Positions 9,797-64,000 of a stretch of DNA of 64,000 nt are shown here, piece after piece; position 1 is the stretch's first letter, and each line of letters begins with the position of its first letter. The position numbers were made by a program, and so were the translations under genes. Source of the stretch: Candidatus Eremiobacteraceae bacterium. Lineage in GTDB: Bacteria; Vulcanimicrobiota; Vulcanimicrobiia; Eremiobacterales; Eremiobacteraceae. Location: positions 1 to 64,000 of the forward strand of contig DASTCX010000019.1 in assembly GCA_035710745.1 (NCBI GenBank), read 5' to 3'. Below the pieces are notes generated by a model. That model was given only the letters and a program-made list of their open reading frames with translations, made no database searches and was not told where the DNA came from.

Positions 9797-9856
9797 GGCC
9801 GCGTCGGTCGAGCTGAAGCTCGACCGCTACAAACCGAGCTTGGCTCGGCCTGCTAC
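9797..9856. repeat. Palindrome mosaic: family A (A3) followed by degenerate B
   Basis: GGCCGCGT flank, A3 stem GGTCGAGCT/AGCTCGACC around GA, CTAC flank, then a B-like hairpin CCGAGC-TTG-GCTCGG at about 9834-9848 with tail CCTGCTACTT. The tail contains, on the minus strand, the TAG stop of the downstream deacetylase-like gene. Confidence 0.85.
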
Positions 9857-10767
9857 TTCACGAGCGTCTTGGCGTCGACGAAGGCGAAGCCGGCAGCTTC
9901 CATCTGCGGCACCATCGTCTCGAGCGCCTGATACGTGGCCGGGAACGGATGCCCGATCGCGATCGCGGTACCGTTCTTCTTCGCGGTCGCCTCGAGTTGC
10001 CGGATCTGGCCTTCGATATACGGCACGTTCACTGAATCATCGAGGAAGACGTCGCGCTCGGCGGTCGGTACGCCGAGCTCGCGCGCGGTCGATGCGCCGA
10101 CGGTCGTCATCGCCGTCATCGAATCGATGAAGAACATGTCGTTGTGCTTCAATATGTCGATGACGTCGCGCATGACGCGCGGGTCGCTCGACGCTTTCGA
10201 GCCCATGTGGTTGTTCGCGCCGGGCAGCGGCGGGAGCGAGGCGATATCCGCATTGAGCTGCGTATCGATCTGCGCATCAGTCATCTCGGTCGATATCTCG
10301 CCGGGTCCTGGATGCGCCCCGGACGAGAACGGCTCCATCGGTATGTGGAGCATGACGGCTTTGCCGGCCGCAACGGCGTCTGCCGCGACTTCTTTGCCGT
10401 GTGGCGTCATGGGCAGGATCGATAGCGTCAGGGGGATCGGCAACTTCAAGAAGACGAGATCGCGGGGCAGGCTGTAGCCGCAATCGTCGATGATGATCGC
10501 GATGCGCGGCGCGCCGCTCGGAGCCGGCGACGGCGAAGGCGCTGGGCTGATCGACTCCAGCGGCGACGGAGTTTCAGAAGTGGTAGGCGTCGGCGACGTG
10601 ACGGCGACGTGGTGTGCCGGCGTTCGCCCGCCGAAATAACCCGCGAATTGGCGCTCGACGACGAAGATGATGACGACCAACACGAGGACGACCGCGATGA
10701 TAAGCGGCAGTCCGGCTCGACGGTTTCGGGCTTGTCGGCGAACCGGTCGCCGGCGGCGAGATGCCAT
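9853..10767 (-). CDS. Divergent polysaccharide deacetylase family protein (YibQ/DUF610)
   Basis: 304 residues with one N-terminal membrane anchor (about 20-38) after a very basic tail, then a Ser/Pro/Thr-rich linker (about 50-88) and the enzymatic fold in the periplasm or outside. Family signatures are IAIIIDDCGYS, LTLSILPMTPHG, AVMLHIPMEP, NHMGSKASSD, FFIDSMT and GHPFPAT. DUF610 proteins resemble NodB-type polysaccharide deacetylases but their substrate is not established. It lies alone between two blocks of palindromes, and its stop codon TAG is part of a B-element flank. Confidence 0.88.
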   Translation of the reverse strand: MASRRRRPVRRQARNRRAGLPLIIAVVLVLVVIIFVVERQFAGYFGGRTPAHHVAVTSPTPTTSETPSPLESISPAPSPSPAPSGAPRIAIIIDDCGYSLPRDLVFLKLPIPLTLSILPMTPHGKEVAADAVAAGKAVMLHIPMEPFSSGAHPGPGEISTEMTDAQIDTQLNADIASLPPLPGANNHMGSKASSDPRVMRDVIDILKHNDMFFIDSMTAMTTVGASTARELGVPTAERDVFLDDSVNVPYIEGQIRQLEATAKKNGTAIAIGHPFPATYQALETMVPQMEAAGFAFVDAKTLVK

Positions 10768-10804: not shown

Positions 10805-10978
10805 AGCCGAGCTTCGCTCGGCCTACTTCATCTACCACTTGGACTGGCCGCGGCGGTCGAGATGAATCTCGACCGCTCCCTATCTCTCAAGCAAGGCCGC
10901 GGCGGTCGAGATGAATCTCGACCGCTCCCTATCTCTCAAGCAAGGCCGCGGCGGTCGAGATGAATCTCGACCGCTCCC
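10805..10978. repeat. Family B palindrome plus three tandem family A units
   Basis: B core GCCGAGC/GCTCGGC at 10805-10821 with CTACTTCAT tail. Three identical A1 elements start at 10846, 10895 and 10944, each 35 bp and separated by the same 14-bp spacer, so the unit is 49 bp. Identical spacers show local tandem duplication and rule out a CRISPR array. Confidence 0.95.
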
Positions 10979-10990
10979 TGTGTCTTTATT

Positions 10991-11476
10991 CTAGGGTGAG
11001 GGCGTCGTCGCGGGTTGCACGACGTTCGGGATCGGCGCGCCCTTGAGCGCGTGGACGACGATGTCCAACCGCTCCTGTGAGAGCACATTGCCCGACGGGT
11101 CGAGGATCTTCACGAGGATGTACTTCGTGCCCGACAGCGCGACGGCCGCGCCGTTCATCGGAAACGTGTAATCCTTGTCGACGACAAAGCCGAACGGCGA
11201 CGCCGGCAGGCTCTGATCGACCTGTTCGGTCTGGCTCGCGAGCATCGAGTCCGTGGCATTGAACACCGCGAACTGGACTGAGGTGAGCGGGATGTGCCCG
11301 AAGCCCTTCGCCACGACATGCGCGTGGACGGTCTCGGACGTATCGAGAAGGCCGACGATGAGCGGGTTAGGCGTTAACGTTAATGAGAGCGAGTGATCGT
11401 TGCAACCAGCGGCCATGCCGGCAGCTGCAATGGAGAGCGCCGCGGCGGCCGCCGCGATCGGCTTTCGGAAGAGCAT
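10991..11476 (-). CDS. Lipoprotein downstream of the secretin, unknown function
   Basis: 161 residues; AAAGGA precedes the ATG at 11476. A long alanine-rich signal ends in GMAAGC, a lipoprotein cleavage site. The mature part looks like an all-beta, Ig-like domain (LTLTPNPLIVG, KYILVKILDPSGNVLS) and has no enzyme motif. It follows the secretin gene by 18 nt in the same direction. That position fits a secretin-associated (pilotin-like or periplasmic) lipoprotein, but this is only context. Confidence 0.7.
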   Translation of the reverse strand: MLFRKPIAAAAAALSIAAAGMAAGCNDHSLSLTLTPNPLIVGLLDTSETVHAHVVAKGFGHIPLTSVQFAVFNATDSMLASQTEQVDQSLPASPFGFVVDKDYTFPMNGAAVALSGTKYILVKILDPSGNVLSQERLDIVVHALKGAPIPNVVQPATTPSP

Positions 11477-15561: not shown

Positions 15562-16005
15562 CTACCCTTTCGGATTTTTCGAGCCTCGGACCGCAAGGCC
15601 GAGAAAAACTATTTTGGCGGCTCCGAGGGCAATCCTGTCGCCGCGTCGCAGCGCGGTCGGTCCGTCAGCTGGGCGACCATTCACATATGTACCGTTTGTC
15701 GAGTCGAGGTCCTCGATGGACGGGCCTGCGTCACATCGTATACGAGCGTGATGCTTGCTGACCGTCGATTCGTCGACCACGAGATCGCAGCCGGGAGCTC
15801 GGCCGATCGTCGCGCCGTCGTTCAACTCGACCGTTTGGACAGCTCGTCCGCGGACGCTTACCTTGAGGCGAGCGGCGACCGCCTGTCCTGCAGCGGCCGG
15901 CTCTTGTCGCACGATGTCGGGGTCGCGCAGCGCCCAGACAGCGAGAACGAACGCTGCCACGATCGTGCCGAGCGATTCCCACTGTATCGCTGCGACCGCA
16001 TTCAT
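15562..16005 (-). CDS. Membrane-anchored FHA-domain protein
   Basis: 147 residues: an N-terminal transmembrane segment (about 10-27), then an FHA domain (about 47-140). Phosphothreonine-binding residues are visible: R69 in TIGRAPGCD, S83 and H86 in STVSKHHARI, and N104 in DSTNGTYVNG. It resembles FhaB-type adaptors that recruit phosphorylated cell-wall proteins. It is the first gene of the FHA-PP2C-SEDS group, which implies a Ser/Thr kinase elsewhere in the genome. A block of palindromes separates it from rsmB upstream. Confidence 0.92.
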   Translation of the reverse strand: MNAVAAIQWESLGTIVAAFVLAVWALRDPDIVRQEPAAAGQAVAARLKVSVRGRAVQTVELNDGATIGRAPGCDLVVDESTVSKHHARIRCDAGPSIEDLDSTNGTYVNGRPADGPTALRRGDRIALGAAKIVFLGLAVRGSKNPKG

Positions 16006-16026: not shown

Positions 16027-16146
16027 GGAGCGGTCGACCTTTATGGTCGACCGCCGCGGCCTCGCCTGGTCAGCCGAGCTTCGCTCGGCCTGCTACATTA
16101 CTAAAAAGCTAGGCCGCGGCGGTCGAGATAAATCTCGACCGCTACA
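16027..16146. repeat. Palindrome mosaic A2-B-A1
   Basis: A2 element at 16027-16061 in reverse orientation (GGAG flank first, stem GGTCGACC twice around TTTAT, CCGCGGCC last); B core at 16073-16089 with tail CTGCTACATTA; A1 at 16112-16146 in forward orientation with a CTAC flank. The last flank gives the TAG stop codon of rsmB at 16142-16144. Confidence 0.95.
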
Positions 16147-17575
16147 TCTTACTATTATGGAGCAGCGCGTAGAAAAAGCCGTCGGCGCCGTCGATGCCCG
16201 GCACTGTCAACGCGTACTTGCCGATCTTTCTGACGCCCGATGACGCGGTCAAAGGCAGGTCGGCGGCGCTCCACTCGGCATTTTCGCCCAAAAACGCATC
16301 GACGATCGCTTCATCTTCTTCTGCGGGCGTCGTGCACGTGACGTACTGCAACCGCCCACCGGGTCGTACGCGCTGCGCAGCCGTTCGCAAGATCGCCGCC
16401 TGGACTCGCGCGAATCGCGCCGGATCGTGCTCGCGCTTTCGCCAACGCGCGTCTGGCCGGCGTCCGAGAACGCCGAGGCCAGAGCACGGTGCGTCGACGA
16501 GCGCCGCATCGACCTGCGTTGGCACTTCAGTCGGGTACGTCTCGCGAGCGTCCGCACGCAGGACGCGCACGTTTTTCCACTCCTTACGCTGCACCGTGTC
16601 GCGAAGCGCCGACAGCTTTTGCTCGTCGTCGTCAAGCGCCCATACAGTTCCCTCGCCTGCGAGGCGCGACGCGATCATCGATGTCTTCACGCCTCGCCCG
16701 CAGCACGCATCGAGCACGACTTCGCCGGGCTTTGGATCGAGGAGATGGACCGCGAGCTGGCTCTCCTCGCTCTGACGAACCACACGACCACTCGCGATCG
16801 CTTCACGAAGCGTCTCGTTCGCGGCGCCGACGACGACAAGACACTCAGGGATCTGGTACCGGTTCTCGTTTAGTCCATCTGGCGACGATCGCGATGTATC
16901 ATTCGCCTGGCTTGGCCGCGGCGGTCGACCGTGAAGGTCGACCGCTCCAACGACTACTTCCATCAACCGCTCTCGTTCGACTGGAGAGCCGTCGATGCGG
17001 AATGCGCGCCGAGGCGCGCCGTTCATCCCATCGGCGGCGCGCAGCGCATCGTCGAAGCCGAAGCGTGCGATGAGTTGCGCGGCGATCCAATCGGGAAGCG
17101 AGGCGTAAATGCCAAGCGCTACCGCACCGTCTGCGGGCGTCGGCACTGGAGGCCGCGCCTTGTCGGCCGCGACCTTTCTAAGCACGGCATTTGCGAAGCC
17201 GGCGATGCCCGGATGCCCGCCCGCGCGGGCAAGAGTCACCGCCTCGTCGACTGCGCTGTGCGCCGGCACTCGATCCAAATAAAGCAACTGGTACGCGCCG
17301 AGCAAGATCACCCATTTAAGCCGCTCGTCGAGGGATTCGAACGGGCGCGAGAGATGCCGGCTGACCGACCAGATCAACGCGCGGCGCATCTTGAGCGTGC
17401 CGTATGCGAGCTCGGTCGCGAATCCCCGATCGGTGGGGCCCAGCGAAGCGGCCCGCAATTCGCGATCGAGGTCTTCGGCGGCGAATCCGCCGTGCATGAG
17501 CGCGGCGAGCGCGACGCCGCGCGCGGTCAACTTCGCGGGCGCTCGCTTCGCGACGGCCCGTTTCGTCTCGTTCAC
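16142..17575 (-). CDS. rsmB: 16S rRNA (cytosine-967 C5)-methyltransferase, with in-frame palindrome insert
   Basis: 477 residues. The N-terminal NusB-like RNA-binding domain (about 14-140) includes LLGAYQLLYLDRVPAHSAVDEAV and GFANAVLRK. The SAM domain has DACCGRGVKT (motif I), LVDAPCSGLG with the first catalytic Cys, and QYVTCTTPAEEDEA with the second. Residues 211-222 (AVDLHGRPPRPS) are encoded by a family A palindrome in the linker before the methyltransferase domain. The frame stays open, so the gene is probably functional. The start overlaps fmt (ATGA), and the stop codon lies in another A element. Context def-fmt-rsmB-PP2C is the classical Firmicute order. Confidence 0.93.
   Translation of the reverse strand: MNETKRAVAKRAPAKLTARGVALAALMHGGFAAEDLDRELRAASLGPTDRGFATELAYGTLKMRRALIWSVSRHLSRPFESLDERLKWVILLGAYQLLYLDRVPAHSAVDEAVTLARAGGHPGIAGFANAVLRKVAADKARPPVPTPADGAVALGIYASLPDWIAAQLIARFGFDDALRAADGMNGAPRRAFRIDGSPVERERLMEVVVGAVDLHGRPPRPSQANDTSRSSPDGLNENRYQIPECLVVVGAANETLREAIASGRVVRQSEESQLAVHLLDPKPGEVVLDACCGRGVKTSMIASRLAGEGTVWALDDDEQKLSALRDTVQRKEWKNVRVLRADARETYPTEVPTQVDAALVDAPCSGLGVLGRRPDARWRKREHDPARFARVQAAILRTAAQRVRPGGRLQYVTCTTPAEEDEAIVDAFLGENAEWSAADLPLTASSGVRKIGKYALTVPGIDGADGFFYALLHNSKM
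16914..16948. repeat. Family A palindrome (A2 stem) in frame inside rsmB
   Basis: A complete A2 element: GGCCGCGG flank, stem GGTCGACC/GGTCGACC around GTGAA, CTCC flank. It lies wholly within the rsmB reading frame, about 630 nt after its start, and encodes residues near 210-222. The surrounding frame is uninterrupted. Confidence 0.95.
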
Positions 17576-24339: not shown

Positions 24340-24413
24340 GGGAGCGGTCGAGATTCATCTCGACCGCCGCGGCCTCGCAGTAAGGAAATGTAATAGGCCG
24401 AGCGAAGCTCGGC
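24340..24413. repeat. Palindrome mosaic: family A (A1) followed by B
   Basis: A1 in reverse orientation at 24340-24374 (GGGAG flank, stem GGTCGAGAT/ATCTCGACC around TC, CCGCGGCC), then a B element with ATGTAATAG leader and core GCCGAGC/GCTCGGC ending at 24413. It separates pntB from the next gene by filling almost the entire gap. Confidence 0.92.
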
Positions 24414-27377: not shown

Positions 27378-27492
27378 GGCCGCGGCGGTCGAGATAAATC
27401 TCGACCGCTCCCCGTTCGGCCGCGGCGGTCGAGATAAATCTCGACCGCTCCCCGTTCGGCCGCGGCGGTCGAGATAAATCTCGACCGCTCCC
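27378..27492. repeat. Three tandem family A palindromes between topA and trmFO
   Basis: Identical A1 elements start at 27378, 27418 and 27458 (35 bp each), separated by the same 5-bp spacer CGTTC, so the unit is 40 bp. The array fills the gap between two genes of one operon, so it would be transcribed as three successive hairpins in the topA-trmFO mRNA. Confidence 0.95.
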
Positions 27493-27511
27493 AAATCGCG
27501 CGTATTCGATG

Positions 27512-29857: not shown

Positions 29858-29892
29858 GGAGCGGTCGACCTTCATGGTCGACCGCCGCGGCT
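29858..29892. repeat. Interspersed palindrome, family A (A2 stem)
   Basis: Reverse orientation: GGAG flank, stem GGTCGACC/GGTCGACC around TTCAT, CCGCGG flank. It lies in the gap between the topA promoter and the 3' end of the propeller gene, 19 nt beyond the latter's stop. Confidence 0.93.
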
Positions 29893-31174: not shown

Positions 31175-31203
31175 GCCGAGCTTCGCTCGGCATACCACAT
31201 TTT
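31175..31203. repeat. Interspersed palindrome, family B
   Basis: Core GCCGAGC-TTC-GCTCGGC at 31175-31191 with tail ATACCACATTTT. It lies in the 5' leader region of the Vgb-like gene. A second TACCACATG sequence follows shortly after, possibly a remnant of another copy. Confidence 0.9.
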
Positions 31204-31308
31204 CAGAGTACCACATGCTCAGGGCATCAGATAGTCAGGTTCAGTCAGGCAAACGTATAACGCAGCCGTGGCGGTTCCCCGCCCGGGCTGATGAACGAAG
31301 CGTGAAAT

Positions 31309-38704: not shown

Positions 38705-38750
38705 TCTCGAGTCACGATATGGGGTGGAGCGGTCTCGCCACGCGCAGCAC

Positions 38751-40691
38751 TCATGTGGTACGCCGAGCGAAGCTCGGCTCTCGTTGACCGACGATCGCTC
38801 GCACAGCCTTGACGATGCCGGCTTCGTCGAGCCCGCACTCCTTACGCTGCGCGGCCTGCGTCGCATGGCTTATGAATTCTTCCGGAATCCCGAGCCGCAC
38901 GACGCGCGAAGTGATCCCGCGGTCCGAGAGCGCCTCGAGCACCGCCGAACCGAAGCCGCCCGCGAGGCTGTGCTCTTCTACCGTGACGATAGCCTTGTGC
39001 GTGCGTGCAAGCTTCTCGATCAGCTCGATATCGAGCGGCCGGATGAAGCGCGCGTTGACGACCGTCGTGTCGATGCCATCCCCAGCGAGAACGTTTGTCG
39101 CCCCGAGCGCAGCCTCGACGCAGATGCCGGTTGCGACGATCGCGACTCCTTCGCGCTCGCCGTGTCGCAGCACGTGCGCCTTGCCGAATTCAAGCGCAAC
39201 CGGATCCGGACGATCGTCGCGCTTAGCGCTCGAACCGCGCGGATAGCGGATCGCGACCGGACCTGTGTGCTTCGCTCCATCAGCGGTCGTGCCGTCGTGC
39301 AGCGCGTGACCGTAACGCAGCATCATCCGCAGCTCGTCTTCGGTCGACGGCGCCATGATGACGACGTTCGGCAACGTCCGCAGGTACGCGATATCGTAGG
39401 CGCCTTGATGCGTCTTCCCATCGTCGCCGACGAGTCCCGCACGATCGATGCAGAACGTCACCGGCAGCGATTGCACGCTGACATCGTGGACGATCTGATC
39501 GTATGCGCGTTGGAGGAAGGTCGAGTAGATCGCGACGAGCGGCCGCAAACCCGCGGCCGACGCGCCCGCTGCGAAACACGTCGCGTGTGCCTCGGCGATG
39601 CCGACGTCGAAGAAACGCGCCGGATAGGCCTTGGCGAACTCTTTCAGGCCGGTACCATCTGGCATCGCCGCTGTGATGGCTATGATGCGCGGATCGTGCG
39701 CCGCCATCTGTGCGGCTTCGTTCGCGAACGTCGACGCGAACGTCGTGCCGGATTTCTTGGCGAACTCGCCCGTCACGGGATCGAACGCTGCGACGCCGTG
39801 GAAGGTCCTCGCATCACCTTGCGCCGGCTCGAAACCCATGCCCTTGACCGTGAGAATGTGGAGGAGCACCGGACCTTCGACTTTCGTGCACGCGCGCAAC
39901 GCGTCGATGAGGAAGTTGACGTCGTGGCCGTTGCACGGTCCGATATACGTGAAGCCCATCTCTTCGAACACGACCGACGCTTTGGGCAGCGGCGACACGG
40001 TTTTCCGGCCCGCTGTTTCGGCGGAGCGGATCGCCTTCGTCGCGACTTGGCCGAAGGGCAACCGGCTAAGAACGCGCTTCGTGAGGTCGGCGGTGTGGAC
40101 GACGAGCGGATGCGCGCGCAGCATACTGAGATAGGTCGACATCGCGCCGACGTTCGGAGCGATGCTGAATTCGTTGTCGTTCAGGACGACGATGAAGTTC
40201 GTCTTCAGCTGGCCGGCGTTGTTGATCGCTTCGTAGGCGAGACCGCCCGTGAGCGCTCCGTCGCCGACGACCGCGACGACCCGCTCGTCACGGCCGGCGA
40301 GGTCGCGCGCGGTCGCCATGCCGAGCGCCGCCGAGATCGCGGTCGACGCGTGCGCGGTGCCGAAGTGGTCGTGCGGGCTCTCGCCTCGCTCGGGAAATCC
40401 GGCGATGCCGCCTTGTTGTCTCAGCGAATCGAAGCGGCCGTTGCGCCCGGTGAGCATTTTGTGCGCGTACGTCTGGTGGCCGACGTCCCACACGATTTTA
40501 TCGTCGGGCGATGAGAAGACGTAGTGGAGCGCGAGTGTCAGCTCGACGACACCGAGGTTCGGCGCCACGTGCCCACCATTCCGCGCGCAGACTTCGACGA
40601 TGCGCGCGCGCAGTTCATGCGCGAGTTGCGGCAGTTCGGCACGCGTCAGTTTCTTGAGATCGTCGGGTCCGTCGATGCGTTCGAGTTGCAT
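38751..40691 (-). CDS. dxs: 1-deoxy-D-xylulose-5-phosphate synthase
   Basis: 646 residues from the ATG at 40691; a GTG 12 codons upstream is less likely. TPP enzyme that condenses pyruvate and glyceraldehyde-3-phosphate in the MEP isoprenoid pathway. Seen are WDVGHQTYAHKMLTGR, VVGDGALTGGLAYEAINNAG (TPP/Mg motif, GDG...NN), the transketolase pyrimidine domain with DVGIAEAHATCFAAG, FCIDRAGLVGDDGKTHQGAYD and the C-terminal domain VVNARFIRPLD. The final residues EPSFARRTT are encoded by a family B palindrome, so the native C-terminus was probably replaced or extended by it. A good promoter lies about 50 nt upstream. Confidence 0.96.
   Translation of the reverse strand: MQLERIDGPDDLKKLTRAELPQLAHELRARIVEVCARNGGHVAPNLGVVELTLALHYVFSSPDDKIVWDVGHQTYAHKMLTGRNGRFDSLRQQGGIAGFPERGESPHDHFGTAHASTAISAALGMATARDLAGRDERVVAVVGDGALTGGLAYEAINNAGQLKTNFIVVLNDNEFSIAPNVGAMSTYLSMLRAHPLVVHTADLTKRVLSRLPFGQVATKAIRSAETAGRKTVSPLPKASVVFEEMGFTYIGPCNGHDVNFLIDALRACTKVEGPVLLHILTVKGMGFEPAQGDARTFHGVAAFDPVTGEFAKKSGTTFASTFANEAAQMAAHDPRIIAITAAMPDGTGLKEFAKAYPARFFDVGIAEAHATCFAAGASAAGLRPLVAIYSTFLQRAYDQIVHDVSVQSLPVTFCIDRAGLVGDDGKTHQGAYDIAYLRTLPNVVIMAPSTEDELRMMLRYGHALHDGTTADGAKHTGPVAIRYPRGSSAKRDDRPDPVALEFGKAHVLRHGEREGVAIVATGICVEAALGATNVLAGDGIDTTVVNARFIRPLDIELIEKLARTHKAIVTVEEHSLAGGFGSAVLEALSDRGITSRVVRLGIPEEFISHATQAAQRKECGLDEAGIVKAVRAIVGQREPSFARRTT
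38754..38779. repeat. Family B palindrome forming the 3' end of dxs
   Basis: Tail ATGTGGTAC and core GCCGAGC/GCTCGGC around GAA. The dxs frame runs through the whole element and stops with TGA in its tail. A fragment GGAGCGGTC just beyond (38725-38733) looks like half of an A element. Confidence 0.93.
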
Positions 40692-41484: not shown

Positions 41485-41501
41485 CGGCTGCGATAAGGAA
41501 T

Positions 41502-41683
41502 GGGAGCGGTCGAGATTCATCTCGACCGCCGCGGTCTGACATCTCGCCATGTAGCGGTCGAGCTTTAGCTCGACCGTAGACGGCCTTTCCCTTGCAAGAC
41601 CGCGGCGGTCGACCGTAAAGGTCGACCGCTCCATTCTTCCCTATGCAAGACCGCGGCGGTCGAGCTAAAGCTCGACCGCTACA
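41502..41683. repeat. Cluster of four family A palindromes (A1, A3, A2, A3)
   Basis: A1 reverse at 41502-41536 (GGGAG flank), A3 reverse at 41551-41576 (GTAG flank), A2 forward at 41598-41632 (CTCC flank), A3 forward at 41649-41683 (CTAC flank). The two convergent genes on either side are separated only by this cluster. The last flank contains, on the minus strand, the TAG stop codon of murI. Confidence 0.95.
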
Positions 41684-42467
41684 GTCCCACGTGGTGTGCC
41701 GTCGCGACGGGCGCACCCATCAAGAGCGACGCGCTTGTTGCGAAGGCCGTCGGATCGCCGCTGACTTCGAAGTCGATTGAGCCCCTTTGCGGCTCGAACT
41801 CGGATAAGATCTGCGCGGCATCGCGGCCGACCGCTTCGCCCGGATCGACGATGCGCACGCCCGGACCGAGGGCCTCGCGAAACCATTTCGTCAAGTGTGG
41901 GAAGTGCGTGCAGCCAAGCACGACGGTGTCGCATTTCGCTCGCAGAAACGACTCGCAGCATGCGGCGACTGCGGCTCGCGCTTCTTCCGTCGCCCAGTCG
42001 CCGCGCTCGACGATCGGCACGAGGGCTGGAGCGCCGATGCTCGTCACAACGGCATCCGCGCGCATGGAACGGATCCCCCGATCGAAGACGCCGCTCTTCG
42101 CGGTCGCGTTCGTCGCGACGACGCCGATCGCGCCCGAGCGCGACGCCTCGACCGCAGACCGCGCGCCAGGCCCGACCAGCCCCAAAAGCGGCACGCCGAT
42201 ATCGGGCCAGCCGAGCTTGTCGAACGCCGAGCACGTCGTGCCGCACGCGATCGCGATCATCGCCGGCTCACGCTCCATGAGATGCGCGATGATGCGTCGC
42301 GCAAAACCTGAAACTTCTTCGAGCGTTCGATCGCCGTACGGCACGTGTGCCGTATCCGCGAAATAGACGACGTCCGTCGCGTCGATGGACGAGCGGACGG
42401 CGTTGAGCACGGTCAGTCCGCCGAGGCCGGAATCGAACATGCCTAGGCGTCGTGGTCGTCGAGCCAT
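41679..42467 (-). CDS. murI: Glutamate racemase
   Basis: 262 residues. Makes D-glutamate for peptidoglycan. LGMFDSGLGGLTVLNAV is the N-terminal signature with catalytic-region Asp; YFADTAHVPYGDR follows; the first catalytic Cys lies in AIACGTTCSAF (usually ACNTAS) and the second in VVLGCTHFPHL. The Asn that normally follows the first Cys is Gly here. It follows the amidase gene by 5 nt and ends with a TAG supplied by an A palindrome. The GerMN-amidase-murI order suggests a cell-wall operon. Confidence 0.94.
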   Translation of the reverse strand: MARRPRRLGMFDSGLGGLTVLNAVRSSIDATDVVYFADTAHVPYGDRTLEEVSGFARRIIAHLMEREPAMIAIACGTTCSAFDKLGWPDIGVPLLGLVGPGARSAVEASRSGAIGVVATNATAKSGVFDRGIRSMRADAVVTSIGAPALVPIVERGDWATEEARAAVAACCESFLRAKCDTVVLGCTHFPHLTKWFREALGPGVRIVDPGEAVGRDAAQILSEFEPQRGSIDFEVSGDPTAFATSASLLMGAPVATAHHVGL

Positions 42468-48134: not shown

Positions 48135-49802
48135 TCACATGCTTTGCTTGTATTGAGCCAGACGCGGATTGGGCTGCAGCAGCACGAGCGAGTCGTTGTA
48201 GTCGAAGTAGACGTCGAAATAGCGCAGGAACTGATAGCCGATCAGACCGTTTTGATCTTCGCCTTGGAAATCGGCGACCGAATCGACGATGTCGTAGACG
48301 CGAAAGTCGTCGAGGCTCGCACCAGCCACGAAATGCTTCACGGTCGCCGGCTGCAGCTCGAAAAGCCCTCCGACACCCTCCGCCGTCACGAGCGGATAGT
48401 ACGTCTTGTTCGCGATGGTATAGCTCAGCGCCGGCAGCTCGGCGGCGTGCTTTTGCGCGAAACCCTGGAAGAGCACGACGAGCGTCGACCCCGTATCGAT
48501 GATGAAATCGTTCCCACCCGTCTCGCCCAACGACGCGCTCACGACCGGTACCGCATCATCGAGCTTCAGCGGCAACGGATACACCGTGCCCGACGGCGGC
48601 ACGAACGATTTCGGATCGTACGCATCGACGGTGCCGTCGTAGTAGTCGACCTTTATGACTGCACCCGCGAGAAAATCGTAACCGAGCAGGCCGACGACTT
48701 TCGTGTCGCGGTCCTGCTGGTAGTTGAATGGGATCGCGGAGATGCTCACGTCATCGAGCGCGAGATCGCCGATGCGCATCTCGGGCACGATCGTGTTGGC
48801 GGCCTCGAACGTTCCGGCGACGGTATGCGTGCTCTCTCCGAAGCGCTTGAGGCCAAGCTGATCCGCGACACCGGCATCGAGCGCGATGCCCGACGTTCCG
48901 GAATCGAGCTTGAAGTCGAGACCGCGGCCGTTGACGCTCAGGCGGACGATGATCGAACCGTTCTCGATCCGAGCGGGCAGGCGGACGTGCGTGACGCCGG
49001 CCGGGAAATGAAGCGGCGACCGTGTCGGCGGTATCGCAAGTTCGGACGGCGCGACGGGACCGCCGTAAGAAAGCTGCGACGTGCGCCAATCGACGTCGTT
49101 CCCGGCGAAGCCGTCGAAGAGATGTTGATGCCATGGGGTCGTCAGGCCGTCGGTGGTGCGGAAATCGTCGTACGTCCAGACGATCCGGTGGCCGAGACGG
49201 CTCTCTTCTCTTCGGAAGAGCCTGCCGGTCGCTGTCTCGATGAACAGCCACTCGTGACGGCCCGCGCTCGGGTTCACCTCGACGACGTACGCGTGCTCGG
49301 GAGTAGCGACTTCACCGAGCAGGCGAACCGAGCCGAGGTTCTCGCCCTTGATCGCCCGGCTCAACGCCTGATCGCTTCGCGCTTCTTCTCCATGCACGCC
49401 GCTGACCGACCGCGTGTAACCGTTTTCGTTTTGACGCCATTGCTGCCCATGATACGTACCGCTCGCCGTCGTCGTCGGACCAAGCCGAGTCGTTTCGATG
49501 AAATCGTCGCCAGAGTCGAGCTCGGTATACGTCCCCGATTCGCCGTACGCGGTGATCGCATCGACTTCACGCGATGTCGTAGTCCCCTTCGGAAGCGAGC
49601 CAGAGCTCGCGTCGTACAAGGCAAGCACCTGCGTCAGCGTCGCTTTTGTGGGAACGATGCCGGCGGGTGGCTGCGCGCTGGGATCCGCGGTGGCGGCCGG
49701 AGCCGGCGGTGCGTCCGCGAATGCCCTCACCGGTCCGGACGCGAACGCGATCGAAACGCAGGTTGCGATCGCGAGACGTCCGAGCGCGCTCCAACCGTTC
49801 AT
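48135..49802 (-). CDS. Secreted protein with two retropepsin-like aspartic protease domains (copy 3)
   Basis: 555 residues. A signal peptide (1-30) is followed by a 240-residue N-terminal domain (GESGTYTELDSGDDFIETTRLGP, IVWTYDDFRTTDGLTTPWHQHL) resembling LolA-like outer-membrane lipoprotein-carrier folds. Two retropepsin-type units follow: D300 in FKLDSGTSGIALD with GLLGYDFLAGAVIKVDY (371-387), and D436 in FIIDTGSTLVVLF with GLIGYQFLRYFDVYFDY near 520. Each unit has both the D[ST]G motif and the hydrophobic-Gly flap-return motif, so the protein could form an intramolecular active dimer. Last of three tandem paralogues; the ATG overlaps the preceding stop (ATGA). Confidence 0.82.
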   Translation of the reverse strand: MNGWSALGRLAIATCVSIAFASGPVRAFADAPPAPAATADPSAQPPAGIVPTKATLTQVLALYDASSGSLPKGTTTSREVDAITAYGESGTYTELDSGDDFIETTRLGPTTTASGTYHGQQWRQNENGYTRSVSGVHGEEARSDQALSRAIKGENLGSVRLLGEVATPEHAYVVEVNPSAGRHEWLFIETATGRLFRREESRLGHRIVWTYDDFRTTDGLTTPWHQHLFDGFAGNDVDWRTSQLSYGGPVAPSELAIPPTRSPLHFPAGVTHVRLPARIENGSIIVRLSVNGRGLDFKLDSGTSGIALDAGVADQLGLKRFGESTHTVAGTFEAANTIVPEMRIGDLALDDVSISAIPFNYQQDRDTKVVGLLGYDFLAGAVIKVDYYDGTVDAYDPKSFVPPSGTVYPLPLKLDDAVPVVSASLGETGGNDFIIDTGSTLVVLFQGFAQKHAAELPALSYTIANKTYYPLVTAEGVGGLFELQPATVKHFVAGASLDDFRVYDIVDSVADFQGEDQNGLIGYQFLRYFDVYFDYNDSLVLLQPNPRLAQYKQSM

Positions 49803-51478
49803 TGCTTCATCTCGTTGAGCAGAATCGAATTCGGTTGTAGGAAGATCGTCGAATCAGCGTAGTCGAAATAGACGTCGAAGAACTGCAGTATCGGATAACC
49901 CACGAGACCATCGATGTCCTCGCCGACGAAGTTCGCGGCTTGCGTAAGCCGTACGTCCTGGAAGCCCTCTTCACCGATGAAAAAATCCCGCGCCTGGATG
50001 GGCTGAAGGAAAAAAAATCCGCCAACTCCTTGCGCAACCTCCTTCGGATAGTACACCTTCCTGCCGTCCGCGTAACCAATTTGCGCGATATCGTTGCTGT
50101 GCTGCTTGGCGAAATCGTCGAAAATGATGAACGATTGCGCGCCGGTGTCGATGACGAAGTTGCCGGGGTCTCCACTTCCGAGCTGAGCATCGATCATCGG
50201 GATTTGATCGTCTAGCTTGATCGGTAGTTTTTCGATCGGTCCGGCCGGCGCCTTGAACGATGCCGCGTCGAACGCGTCGACCGTGTCGTTGACGTAGTCT
50301 ACCTTCACGACCGCGCCGGCAAAGAAATCATAGCCGAGCAGCCCGACGACCTTGTGCTCCGAGTCGGGATTGTAAAAGAACGGGAGACATTGAACGACGA
50401 CGTTGTGCATCGACAGCGGCCCGATCTGGATCTCGGACACGATGGCGCTCGACACTTCATGCGATGTCGACTGCTCGTCGCTTTGAGTATCGAATTTCTC
50501 CAGCCCGAGCTGGCTCGCGACATCGGCGTCGATGACGACGCCGCTCGCGCCGGAATCGAGCTGGAGATCGAGGCCCCGACCGCCGATCGTCACGTGCACG
50601 ATGATCGCGCCGTCTTCAAACATCGCCGGAAGTCGGATGTCGCCTGCGGCGGCCGGGAACGTGAGCGGCCCTCGGCTCGGCGGGATCGCGAGTTCGCCCG
50701 GCGTGAGCCGCGCTGCGTCGTCGAGACTCGTGGTCTTCCAATCGAAAGCATCTTCAGGCGACCCGTCCGCGTAGGTCTCGTGCCAAGGTTCGACAACGCC
50801 GTCCGTCGTGCGGAAGTCGTCGTACGTGTACGTCTCGCGCGTGCCGTCACCTGAGTCTTCCTTGCGTACGAGCCTACCGCTCGCCCTGTCGATGAACAGC
50901 CACTCGAGCAAGCCGCCCTGCGGGTGGACTTCCATCACGTACGCTTCGACCGGCTTCGCGACTTCACCGAGGAGGCGCACCGAATCCGCGGGGGTGCCCT
51001 TTAACGCGTCGGCAAGGGCTCTGGCGCTCAACATCGATTCGTCGTGGATGCCGCTTACGATACGAGTGTAGCCGTTCTCGTTGTGGCTCCAGCGGACGCC
51101 GTGGAACGACCCGAATGAAGCCGAGGTCCGCCCCAACCGGAACGTCGTGACGAAGTCGTTGCCAGAGCGCACGATCGTCTCGGTGCCGCTATCGCTTTGT
51201 CCAGATACCGCATCGACTTCGCGCGACACAGCGATCGGCTTGACGACGTTCCCGGCACTTGCTCGATAAAGCGCGAGCACCTCAGCAACAGTCTTTGTCG
51301 TAGGAACGAGTCCGGCGGGCGGCAGCGTGCTTGGATCGGGCGTCGCCGTGGATGTGGTCGAGGGTGCATCTGCCAGCAATGATCCGACGGTGCCGCCTGC
51401 GAGAGCCGGCGCCGAATAGACCGCCCCCGCTACGAGCGCTGCGCTAGACCAAGAAGCAATCGTATTTCTGATCGTCAC
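49799..51478 (-). CDS. Secreted protein with two retropepsin-like aspartic protease domains (copy 2)
   Basis: 559 residues with the same layout as its two neighbours: signal peptide, variable Thr/Pro/Ser linker, PPAGLVPTTKTVAEVLALYRAS, YTYDDFRTTDGVVEPWHETY. The aspartic motifs are LQLDSGASGVVID (about residue 305) with VVGLLGYDFFAGAVVKVDY, and FVIDTGAQSFIIF (about 440) with GLVGYPILQFFDVYFDY. It is the most diverged of the three, with different residues around both motifs. It starts 6 nt after the first copy's stop and overlaps the third copy by 4 nt. Confidence 0.82.
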   Translation of the reverse strand: MTIRNTIASWSSAALVAGAVYSAPALAGGTVGSLLADAPSTTSTATPDPSTLPPAGLVPTTKTVAEVLALYRASAGNVVKPIAVSREVDAVSGQSDSGTETIVRSGNDFVTTFRLGRTSASFGSFHGVRWSHNENGYTRIVSGIHDESMLSARALADALKGTPADSVRLLGEVAKPVEAYVMEVHPQGGLLEWLFIDRASGRLVRKEDSGDGTRETYTYDDFRTTDGVVEPWHETYADGSPEDAFDWKTTSLDDAARLTPGELAIPPSRGPLTFPAAAGDIRLPAMFEDGAIIVHVTIGGRGLDLQLDSGASGVVIDADVASQLGLEKFDTQSDEQSTSHEVSSAIVSEIQIGPLSMHNVVVQCLPFFYNPDSEHKVVGLLGYDFFAGAVVKVDYVNDTVDAFDAASFKAPAGPIEKLPIKLDDQIPMIDAQLGSGDPGNFVIDTGAQSFIIFDDFAKQHSNDIAQIGYADGRKVYYPKEVAQGVGGFFFLQPIQARDFFIGEEGFQDVRLTQAANFVGEDIDGLVGYPILQFFDVYFDYADSTIFLQPNSILLNEMKQ

Positions 51479-51484
51479 TGCTTG

Positions 51485-53224
51485 TCACTGAGAAGAGAGC
51501 ACGCGCAAGACGAGCAGTTTGTTCGGCTGGAGGATCAGCATCGAGTCACGGTAATCGAAGTAGACGTCGAAATACTTGAGCAACGTATGGCCGATCAGGC
51601 CATCTAAGTCCTCATCTTTGAAATCCGATTGCGCGCGGACGGCGTCGAGGACGGTGAAATCGTTGAAACCGACCGTCGCGAATCTGAACGTCGATGCCTG
51701 AAGGGGCATGAGCGAGACTTCGCCGCCGACGCCTTGCGAGGTGACGATCGGATAGAAGGTACGGCTGCCCTCCGAGTATCCGAAATCGAGCAGATTGTTC
51801 GAATTCTCGGAGACGAACGACGGGAAGACGAGCACGGCGAACGACCCGGTATCGACGATGAACTGCCCCATCGCGCCGCCGCCGACTTGCGCCGATGCGA
51901 CGGGGACGTCGTCGTCGAGCCTGATCGGGACTTGGAACGTCTGACCTGGCGGCACGTGGAACGCCGAATAGTCGTACGCGTCGACGGTTTGATTGAGGTA
52001 ATCCACTTTGACGACCGCGCCTGCGAGGAAGTCGTAGCCGAGCAGCCCGACGATCTTCGTGTGCTCGTCCCAATTCGATGCGAACGGCAGGCAGTGCACG
52101 CTGACGTTCGACATCGTGAGCTGTCCGATCTGGATCTGCGGAACGATCGCATCGGATGCCTGGAAATCGCCCGCGACCGCTTGCGTCCGCTGGCCGAACG
52201 TCTGAAGTCCGAGCTGGCGCGCGACGTCCGCGTCGATGACGATGTTGCTCGCGCCCGAGTCGAGCTGGAAGTCGAGACCGCGCCCGTTGATCGTCAGCCT
52301 GACGATGATGACGCCGTACTCGATGCGCGCGGGCAGCCGGACTTCGGTGACGCCCGCCGGGAAATGGAGCGGCGAGCGTGACTGCGGTATCGCGACGTCC
52401 GCCGGTGACACGGCGGCACCTAACTGGAGGCTCGTCGTCGTCGTATCGACATCGTTGCCGACGAAGCCGTCGGAGAAGTGCTCGTGCCACGACTCGGTCG
52501 TACCGTCAGTCGTACGGAAATCGTCGTACGTCCAAATGAGCCGATGCCCGGTGCGCGACGCTTCGCGCCGCACGAGGCGCCCCGACGTCGTGTCGAAGAA
52601 CAGCCACTCGTGCCGGCCGCCTTTCGGATCGACCTCGACGACGTACGCGGTCACCGGCGTCGTCACCGTGCCGAGCAGCCGAACGGTGTCGACGTTCTCG
52701 CCGTGCTCGGCCTTCGAAAGCGCGCCCGAACTGAGCTCCTCTTCGGGATGCATATCGGTCAGCGCATTCGTGTAGCCGTTTTCGTTCTGCTCCCAGCGTT
52801 TGCCGTGGTTGCTGCCGCTCGACGTCGTCGATGGCCCGAGCTGCGTCGTCTCGACGTAGTCGTCGCCGGAGCGCGCGTACGACTCGGTTCCGCTTTCTCC
52901 ATACGCGGAAATCGCGTCGACCTCGCGCATCGTCGAAACCGGTTTAGCCGGTTTCCCTTCGCTCGACCTATACGCGCGCAACACTTGCGCGAGCGACACT
53001 TTCGTCGGCGTGATCCCTGATGGCGGCTGATCGCTCGGGTCCGGCGTCGATGAGCTCGCCGCGGCGATCGCCGCATCCGCGCCCGACGTCGAAGCGGGTG
53101 TCGCGGTCGGCGACACGGCCGGGGCGGGAGACGGCGTTGTCGACGCCTCGCGTGCGCTCGCCGCAGTGCCGAGCACGAGCGCGAGCGCGGAAACCAAAAC
53201 TACCACGCACGTAGTGCGAGCCAT
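51485..53224 (-). CDS. Secreted protein with two retropepsin-like aspartic protease domains (copy 1)
   Basis: 579 residues; first gene of the tandem trio. Signal peptide (about 1-24), then a long Ala/Thr/Pro/Ser linker (to about 65), PPSGITPTKVSLAQVLRAYRSS and WTYDDFRTTDGTTESWHEHF. Motifs: FQLDSGASNIVID with IVGLLGYDFLAGAVVKVDY, then FIVDTGSFAVLVF with GLIGHTLLKYFDVYFDY. It ends with ILQPNKLLVLRVLSSQ; the ILQPN segment is shared by all copies (LLQPN, FLQPN). Likely periplasmic or surface-exposed; proteolytic activity is inferred only from motifs. Confidence 0.82.
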   Translation of the reverse strand: MARTTCVVVLVSALALVLGTAASAREASTTPSPAPAVSPTATPASTSGADAAIAAASSSTPDPSDQPPSGITPTKVSLAQVLRAYRSSEGKPAKPVSTMREVDAISAYGESGTESYARSGDDYVETTQLGPSTTSSGSNHGKRWEQNENGYTNALTDMHPEEELSSGALSKAEHGENVDTVRLLGTVTTPVTAYVVEVDPKGGRHEWLFFDTTSGRLVRREASRTGHRLIWTYDDFRTTDGTTESWHEHFSDGFVGNDVDTTTTSLQLGAAVSPADVAIPQSRSPLHFPAGVTEVRLPARIEYGVIIVRLTINGRGLDFQLDSGASNIVIDADVARQLGLQTFGQRTQAVAGDFQASDAIVPQIQIGQLTMSNVSVHCLPFASNWDEHTKIVGLLGYDFLAGAVVKVDYLNQTVDAYDYSAFHVPPGQTFQVPIRLDDDVPVASAQVGGGAMGQFIVDTGSFAVLVFPSFVSENSNNLLDFGYSEGSRTFYPIVTSQGVGGEVSLMPLQASTFRFATVGFNDFTVLDAVRAQSDFKDEDLDGLIGHTLLKYFDVYFDYRDSMLILQPNKLLVLRVLSSQ

Positions 53225-58825: not shown

Positions 58826-58946
58826 GGGAGCGGTCGAGATTCATCTCGACCGCCGCGACCTTGCCTTTTAGAAAATGTAGTAGGCCGAGCGAAGCTCGGC
58901 TCGATAAAAAATGTAGCGGTCGAGCTTTAGCTCGACCGCCGCGACC
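58826..58946. repeat. Palindrome mosaic A1-B-A3
   Basis: A1 reverse at 58826-58860 (GGGAG flank, CCGCGACC), B at about 58874-58900 (leader ATGTAGTAG, core GCCGAGC/GCTCGGC), A3 reverse at about 58912-58946 (GTAG flank, CCGCGACC). The convergent cupin gene ends inside the A3 element with TAA in its loop. Confidence 0.95.
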
Positions 58947-60897: not shown

Positions 60898-60925
60898 GCC
60901 GAGCTTCGCTCGGCATACCACATTA
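60898..60925. repeat. Family B palindrome in front of the radical SAM gene
   Basis: Core GCCGAGC-TTC-GCTCGGC at 60898-60914 with tail ATACCACATTA. It ends 7 nt before the ATG at 60890, so it overlaps the place of the ribosome-binding site and would put a hairpin next to the start codon. Confidence 0.92.
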
Positions 60926-60937
60926 TCTTACGGCATC

Positions 60938-63100: not shown

Positions 63101-64000
63101 ACGCGCTTGAACGCTTTGGCGAGCGCGAGGCGATCCAGCCGCAGCATCGTCGGCCGGCCATGCGGGCAGCTGTGCGGCTCGCGGCACCGGACGAGCCGCT
63201 CGTACAGCGATGCTTGCTCCTGCGGCGAAAGCGCTTCGCCCGCTCTTACGACCGAGTGGCACGCGATGGTCGCGAGCACGCGATTGCGATGCGCGACGCC
63301 TTCGCGCGGCGCATCGTCGGCGCCGAGATCGTCGAGCAACCCGTCGAGGTCGAAGCGGCGTTTCTCGTAACCGGCGGGCAGCGACGCGATGCGATAGGCG
63401 CCGTCGCCGAACGGCTCGACGACGACGCCCGCCGCCGCAAGTTCTTCCTCGGCATCGTGAAGCACCGCCGCGCGTGCCGGCGTCAGTTCGATGACTGACG
63501 GGAAAAGCAGCGGCGCCGCCGTGTCCGTCGCGCCCGCGCCGTCGACGATCGCTTCGTATGCGATGCGCTCGTGCGCCGCGTGCTGGTCGATGACGATCAT
63601 CTCGCCGTCGTTCGCGGCGACGATGAACGTGCGCTCGATCTGCCCCAGCATCCGGACGCCGTTCCCCGTGCGTGACGGTGCGAACGAGAGTTGCGCTTCG
63701 ACGGCGTCGAACGACTCGCCGAGCTTCGATCGGCCTACTACATTTTCGGTTACCCCGCTGTCCAGTGGCATAGAGCTCACCGCGAAGGACCGCACCGTTT
63801 CGGTCGCACGCAAGGTTCGTGCGACGGCGCGCCGCACCGCATCGAACACCGCCGCCTGGTTGGCGAAGCGCACTTCGACCTTCGTCGGATGGACGTTGAC
63901 GTCGACCTCGCCGGGCGGCAACCGGACGCCGAGCGCGCCGTACGGGTAGCGGCCGGTCATGCCGAACGATCCGTAGCCCGCGAGCCACGCCGATGAGAGC
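63097..64000 (-). CDS. mutL: DNA mismatch repair protein MutL (3' part; 5' end outside window)
   Basis: The frame is open to the right edge, so about 300 C-terminal residues are visible. VDVNVHPTKVEVRF closes the N-terminal GHKL/S5 ATPase region. A linker of about 50 residues follows and contains VGRSKLGESFD, encoded by a family B palindrome. The C-terminal domain has the endonuclease motif DQHAAHERIAYE (DQHAX2EX4E), ACHSVVRAGE and CPHGRPTM, so this is a nicking MutL as in bacteria without MutH. It heads the mutL-miaA-hfq group. Confidence 0.95.
   Translation of the reverse strand, partial: LSSAWLAGYGSFGMTGRYPYGALGVRLPPGEVDVNVHPTKVEVRFANQAAVFDAVRRAVARTLRATETVRSFAVSSMPLDSGVTENVVGRSKLGESFDAVEAQLSFAPSRTGNGVRMLGQIERTFIVAANDGEMIVIDQHAAHERIAYEAIVDGAGATDTAAPLLFPSVIELTPARAAVLHDAEEELAAAGVVVEPFGDGAYRIASLPAGYEKRRFDLDGLLDDLGADDAPREGVAHRNRVLATIACHSVVRAGEALSPQEQASLYERLVRCREPHSCPHGRPTMLRLDRLALAKAFKRV
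63718..63746. repeat. Family B palindrome in frame inside mutL
   Basis: Core GCCGAGC-TTC-GATCGGC (one mismatch against the consensus) with tail CTACTACATTTT, fully inside the mutL reading frame in the linker between ATPase and dimerisation domains. The mismatch suggests an old insertion. Confidence 0.9.

Follow-up and report, generated by a model that had tools for sequence, protein, structure and literature searches.

How a dispersed palindromic repeat came to lie in frame within the gene of an rRNA methyltransferase, and what has kept it there, is the question raised by the rsmB locus in the 64,000-nucleotide stretch of Candidatus Eremiobacteraceae DNA analyzed here (the window). The question concerns three nested features:

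16142..17575, minus strand: rsmB, encoding the 16S rRNA m5C methyltransferase RsmB (477 aa), the host of the element, assigned from the ORF, its Pfam domains (NusB and Methyltr_RsmB-F) and Foldseek
16914..16948, minus strand: a complete family-A REP in frame in rsmB, 35 nt long, matching the consensus and with perfect palindrome arms
16921..16945, minus strand: the stem-loop (palindromic core) of this element, also recovered in the genome-wide pattern search

The Pfam domains of the host protein lie at residues 30-136 (NusB) and 277-472 (Methyltr_RsmB-F), and the top PDB match of the RsmB model in Foldseek was 1sqf, the E. coli Fmu/RsmB (TM 0.75/0.83). Read on the minus strand, the 35-nt element is GGAGCGGTCGACCTTCACGGTCGACCGCCGCGGCC, which matches the family-A consensus GGAGCGGTCGACCTTYAYGGTCGACCGCCGCGGYC with 0 mismatches and consists of a GGAG tag, two 10-nt arms (GCGGTCGACC and GGTCGACCGC) enclosing the 5-nt loop TTCAC, and the tail CGCGGCC. 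This match, together with the presence in the window of 4 family-A sites (with up to 3 mismatches) against 0.00 expected from 100 shuffles, bears out the initial annotation, which had proposed that a complete family-A element lies inside the rRNA methyltransferase gene. The element translates to GAVDLHGRPPRP, which occupies residues A211-S222, exactly where that annotation had placed it; the peptide across the whole region is GAVDLHGRPPRPS. The reading frame is open throughout, and the catalytic motifs, which had likewise been described as intact downstream, retain the cysteines C364 (DAPCSGLG) and C414 (YVTCTT) that are invariant in the alignment.

We compared this protein with the RsmBs of relatives in one alignment and in a second one with named genomes. 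The same element is found at the same position in the RsmB of CRAIB_MAG119, a separately deposited genome of the genus, and the two proteins are 85% identical. When RsmB was searched against named genomes, the nearest kin proved to be Candidatus Eremiobacterota; the comparison within the genus rests on these two genomes, the present one being that of a soil bacterium (2.97 Mb in 41 contigs, with the window on contig C19). The insert is absent from the eleven same-family RsmBs that cover the region and from the class-level RsmBs, so the initial annotation's contrary case, in which all relatives would carry the peptide, does not hold. An eye count on the alignment puts the net insert at about 20 residues, as against the about 12 or more that had been anticipated at the palindrome. 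This exceeds the 12 residues of the palindrome itself, and the immediate flanks are likewise extra sequence. The other concern, a sequencing or assembly error or a chimera, has a negligible chance of explaining the locus: such repeats can indeed mislead assembly, but the same site is occupied in the separately deposited CRAIB_MAG119 and the frame is intact in both genomes. In the AlphaFold model of RsmB (mean pLDDT 88) the insert sits in a loop between the helix at 198-208 and the strand at 245-248, with residues 214-216 and 220-235 below 50. It is thus predicted to form a disordered loop in the subdomain that precedes the catalytic domain of an otherwise confident RsmB fold. The initial annotation had placed it in the linker between the NusB-like and SAM domains; in the predicted structure the loop falls within a small subdomain ahead of the SAM domain and not in a bare inter-domain linker.

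The rsmB palindrome is one of a large population. Exact matches to the core GCGGTCGA-N(6-12)-TCGACCGC number 441 in this genome and 263 in CRAIB_MAG119, and almost every one of 59 other relatives has one or none; the exceptions are G004 with 33 cores of a different loop type, G011 with 6 that are unlike ones, and G056 with 2. A reversed-pattern control gave 0 in both genomes of the genus. About 124 copies in this genome belong to family A (at most 1 mismatch). A census of sampled stretches amounting to 1.19 Mb of this genome and 0.46 Mb of CRAIB_MAG119, in which genes were called with a simple home-made caller, recovered 251 elements in the 1.19 Mb, mainly of three subfamilies that differ in the interior of the stem and in the tag:

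Subfamily A: stem interior CC..GG; tag GGAG in 47 of 50
Subfamily B: stem interior GC..GC; tag GTAG in 63 of 75
Subfamily C: stem interior GA..TC; tag GGAG in 102 of 109

The tail is often CGCGGCC or CGCGGTC. As many as 236 of the 251 elements are wholly extragenic, though 89% of the 1.19 Mb is coding, and the gene spaces that bear them are 117 convergent, 102 same-direction and 15 divergent, compared with 95, 308 and 145, respectively, among intergenic spaces of at least 40 bp. Hence, these elements show two features of REPs: 1) they are short palindromes (35 nt, within the 20-50 nt range) in many copies (441 cores); 2) they are mainly extragenic and favor convergent and same-direction spaces. 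As to the tag, the published definition specifies GT[A/G]G (PMC3686654), which subfamily B fits, and from which the conserved GGAG of A and C is one base off. A shorter, distinct palindrome family, GCGGTCGAATNNATTCGACCGC, is present in G004, a member of the same family (33 exact cores, e.g. on G004:C11), in which no PF01797 gene was detected.

The genome also encodes the likely enzymatic counterpart of these elements. Two IS200-like Y1_Tnp (PF01797) genes scored above the cut-off and contain the HxH motif DHVHMVL, and the catalytic tyrosine of the predicted RAYTs would, from the sequence, lie in WQRGYYERIV. One of these genes has inverted subfamily B REPs on either side and the other inverted subfamily C REPs, and both have counterparts in CRAIB_MAG119. 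They thus combine, as single genes between inverted REPs, the Y1_Tnp domain and HUH motif of RAYTs with a putative tyrosine. A third RAYT was sought in this genome and not found, and neither of the two is specific to, or flanked by, family A. As the C REPs have the same GGAG tag, the subfamily C RAYT is by inference a candidate mobilizer of family A. By analogy with characterized TnpA-REP systems, an IS200-like HUH single-tyrosine transposase of this kind would recognize the hairpin in single-stranded form together with the tetranucleotide at its 5' side, and would then move or copy REPs, and selection would purge nearly all genic insertions save those that keep the frame in flexible loops. 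REP insertions in flexible linkers or loops have been considered potentially neutral (Di Nocera et al. 2013, PMC3733652), and the rsmB insert agrees with that account. We propose, with a probability of about 0.87, that the rsmB palindrome is a REP of this REP/RAYT system, which entered the gene in frame before the two known species of the genus diverged and has persisted because its sole effect is to extend a disordered loop.

The initial annotation had held that in-frame palindromes in housekeeping genes are known chiefly from the Rickettsia palindromic elements (RPEs). This framing is too narrow: a survey that spanned many species (Di Nocera et al. 2013, PMC3733652) already described GTAG-REPs lying within genes, among them genes for replication and repair, for tRNA synthetases and for pseudouridine synthases. 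Its judgment that the sequence is unrelated to RPEs agrees with the tags, GGAG in the rsmB element and CGTC in the RPEs of R. conorii (PMC3733652). Both kinds of palindrome behave similarly in settling in frame in housekeeping proteins (here those of rsmB, gltX, glcF, mutS2, purD and cysS), but descent of the present elements from the RPE lineage is extremely improbable, given that their tag is GGAG or GTAG and not CGTC, that the genome encodes RAYTs with cognate REPs, while the CGTC elements are without an associated transposase (PMC3733652), and that the sequence is nearly confined to the genus among the relatives searched.

At least five housekeeping genes besides rsmB carry in-frame REPs: internal elements are found in gltX, glcF (two elements), mutS2, purD and cysS, a count from which a partial copy in L150, and copies at either predicted terminus of an ORF, were excluded. 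The decorated genes serve rRNA methylation (rsmB) and encode two tRNA synthetases, MutS2, PurD and GlcF. All six intragenic sites have a REP or its remnant in both genomes of the genus, and the other family members are without one. The cases of cysS and mutS2 are less clear-cut, since the cysS copy is decayed in this genome and the linkers of both proteins vary in length among relatives. Six weak intragenic matches (C25:10570, C25:124253, C25:148989, C4:198221, C4:274654 and C4:308858) lack the tag or the tail and were discounted as chance matches, and a copy at C3:7327 was not counted as intragenic, because the translation suggests that a glycoside-hydrolase-like gene begins only downstream of it. 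The idea of a single favored reading frame, always giving GAVD, was dropped because mutS2 and cysS use other frames.

In gltX the insert resembles an A element whose loop holds a nested B element, an arrangement that recurs extragenically at C4:18485, where the B element is absent in CRAIB_MAG119 and the flanks are ~99% identical, a presence/absence difference that indicates REP mobility. At the mutS2 site CRAIB_MAG119 (L207) has a family-A element reading GERSTFTVDRRG and this genome (L208) a subfamily C element reading GAVEIHLDRRG in a different frame; in CRAIB_MAG119 the core is 1 nt and the adjacent sequence 2 nt longer, so that the local length restores the frame. In purD one species has a chimeric REP and the other a regular one. 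The swapped subfamilies of mutS2 and the chimeric versus regular REPs of purD lead us to raise, tentatively, the possibility that settled intragenic REPs keep being rewritten by the REP/RAYT machinery, with the subfamily replaced and the frame restored; if true, this would amount to continual editing of protein loops by a transposase system that has been domesticated. In the glcF of CRAIB_MAG119 (L116/L158) a REP-derived insert has grown by expansion into a series of tandemly repeated peptides (ATELVDVAVDVH..., PARPLQDHT...).

The two species further allow conservation of the DNA to be told apart from conservation of the peptide. Across rsmB, gltX and glcF, synonymous differences affect 1 of 48 codons inside elements and 349 of 1610 outside (Fisher p = 2e-4), and non-synonymous ones 4 of 48 and 205 of 1610 (p = 0.5), these being small counts from one species pair. 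The rsmB element has two differences between the species, H/Y and P/S, which are confined to the loop and 3' tail, leaving the stem unchanged. With synonymous changes nearly absent and non-synonymous ones near background, it is, as far as these codons tell, the DNA hairpin and not the peptide that is conserved. This is the reverse of protein constraint, and it makes it very unlikely that the RsmB insert was co-opted, for instance for contact with RNA or the ribosome, and is held by selection on the protein. A short, basic, proline-rich peptide kept in the same frame in both species would suit such a role, but the insert is predicted to be disordered and the copies in other genes are read in other frames, as in mutS2 (see above) or in cysS, where the element reads GERSRFIST. 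The REP sequence would instead be kept by processes at the DNA level, namely RAYT-driven re-insertion, homogenization among copies or selection on the hairpin, any of which would do it, as the data fit each alike.

If the rsmB hairpin itself were selected, as an mRNA or DNA element acting in translation pausing, mRNA stability or as a gyrase site, one would expect the identical stem of both species and the stable hairpin in the sense of the mRNA, which is indeed present in the minimum-free-energy fold of the region (z -2.34). Against this, in the shared extragenic REPs, which lie in other contexts, the cores are mostly preserved too, amid diverged flanks, so that the conservation would seem to characterize the REPs as a population, and the host genes are functionally unrelated; we regard such local selection as improbable.

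Insertion in the common ancestor, as we favor, has also to be weighed against separate acquisitions, each species having gained its own REP in one permissive loop that serves as a hot spot. These are conceivable because the two species cannot be aligned in the sequence within about 25-30 nt of the rsmB element, which is itself nearly identical; furthermore, the mutS2 site is occupied by different subfamilies, as are some extragenic sites. Nevertheless, position, orientation, subfamily and frame are all identical in rsmB, and both species have a REP or remnant at all six intragenic sites, whereas by our own tally of 27 comparable extragenic elements 11 are shared with the same subfamily, 4 have a different subfamily and 12 are absent in the other species. 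Independent insertion into rsmB therefore seems unlikely. The intragenic elements were shared in 4 of 4 cases, and the greater sharing of intragenic than of extragenic elements is only suggestive, since Fisher tests on a previous, less extensive tally yielded p values of 0.03 when elements were counted and 0.06 when genes were.

Further REPs in the window are:

16112..16145, minus strand: a second REP at the rsmB 3' end, with a GTAG tag and the loop region GATTTATC, read from the sequence
16027..16061, plus strand: an extragenic family-A REP between the rsmB 3' end and the next ORF (15562-16005, minus strand)
29858..29892, plus strand: a family-A REP with 1 mismatch
41598..41632, minus strand: a family-A REP within a four-REP cluster (41501-41697)

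The stop codon of rsmB (16142-16144) is the TAG of the GTAG tag of the second REP, a GTAG tag being able to supply a TAG stop codon (Di Nocera et al. 2013, PMC3733652). When the site was compared between the two genomes, CRAIB_MAG119 had no counterpart REP at the rsmB 3' end and no intact counterpart of the REP at 16027..16061 in that place.

In their general behavior these elements resemble the GTAG-REPs (PMC3733652), which are short tagged hairpins, mostly extragenic, with some in frame in repair genes and tRNA synthetases, which occur singly or grouped within a gene, and whose tag supplies a TAG stop as at the rsmB 3' end. They differ in the GGAG tag of A and C, in the stem and in the Ca. 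Eremiobacterota host, and the two-species data go beyond that catalogue in pointing to conservation at the level of the DNA and not of the peptide. The arrangement of an IS200-like HUH gene between inverted cognate REPs, one RAYT per subfamily, is that of the RAYT/TnpA-REP REPtrons (PMC8266576, PMC3686654), with the difference that family A is without a RAYT of its own and the RAYTs described here are predicted. The Stenotrophomonas REPs SM11 and SM12 (GTAGAGTCGAGC..GCTCGACT; PMC3686654) likewise have a tag adjoining a perfect palindrome, with a similar GTCGAGC..GCTCGAC stem, but they belong to another phylum and differ in flanking bases and tail, and the likeness is probably convergence. In the literature searched we found no description of REPs in Eremiobacterota. 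The kind of element is already known; new, as far as checked, are this particular member with its GGAG tag, the set of six genes that carry such inserts and the conservation at the level of the DNA. The case shows that REP/RAYT elements, besides the RPEs of Rickettsia, place repeat-encoded peptides in core enzymes, here in a phylum that has been little studied. Comparing two species makes it possible to tell whether such inserts are conserved as DNA or as protein, a point left open by the 2013 catalogue, and the nested and swapped copies offer natural material on how RAYTs move REPs.

The window contains other repeats as well. REPs occur in tandem at 10846-10992 (three 49-nt units) and 27378-27506 (three 40-nt units), and the cluster at 41501-41697 packs four REPs of mixed subfamilies within 200 nt. 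A second dispersed palindrome family, with a consensus near GTAGTAGGCCGAGCGAAGCTCGGC and without a RAYT assignment, often adjoins REPs:

9834-9861, 10807-10834, 16073-16102, 24383-24413, 31175-31204, 38748-38778, 58870-58900, 60898-60927 and 63718-63747: palindromes resembling GTAGTAGGCCGAGCGAAGCTCGGC

Finally, three divergent direct repeats of ~300 nt each, at spacings of 1652 and 1704 nt, lie at 48744-52702, which suggests three tandem paralogous genes.
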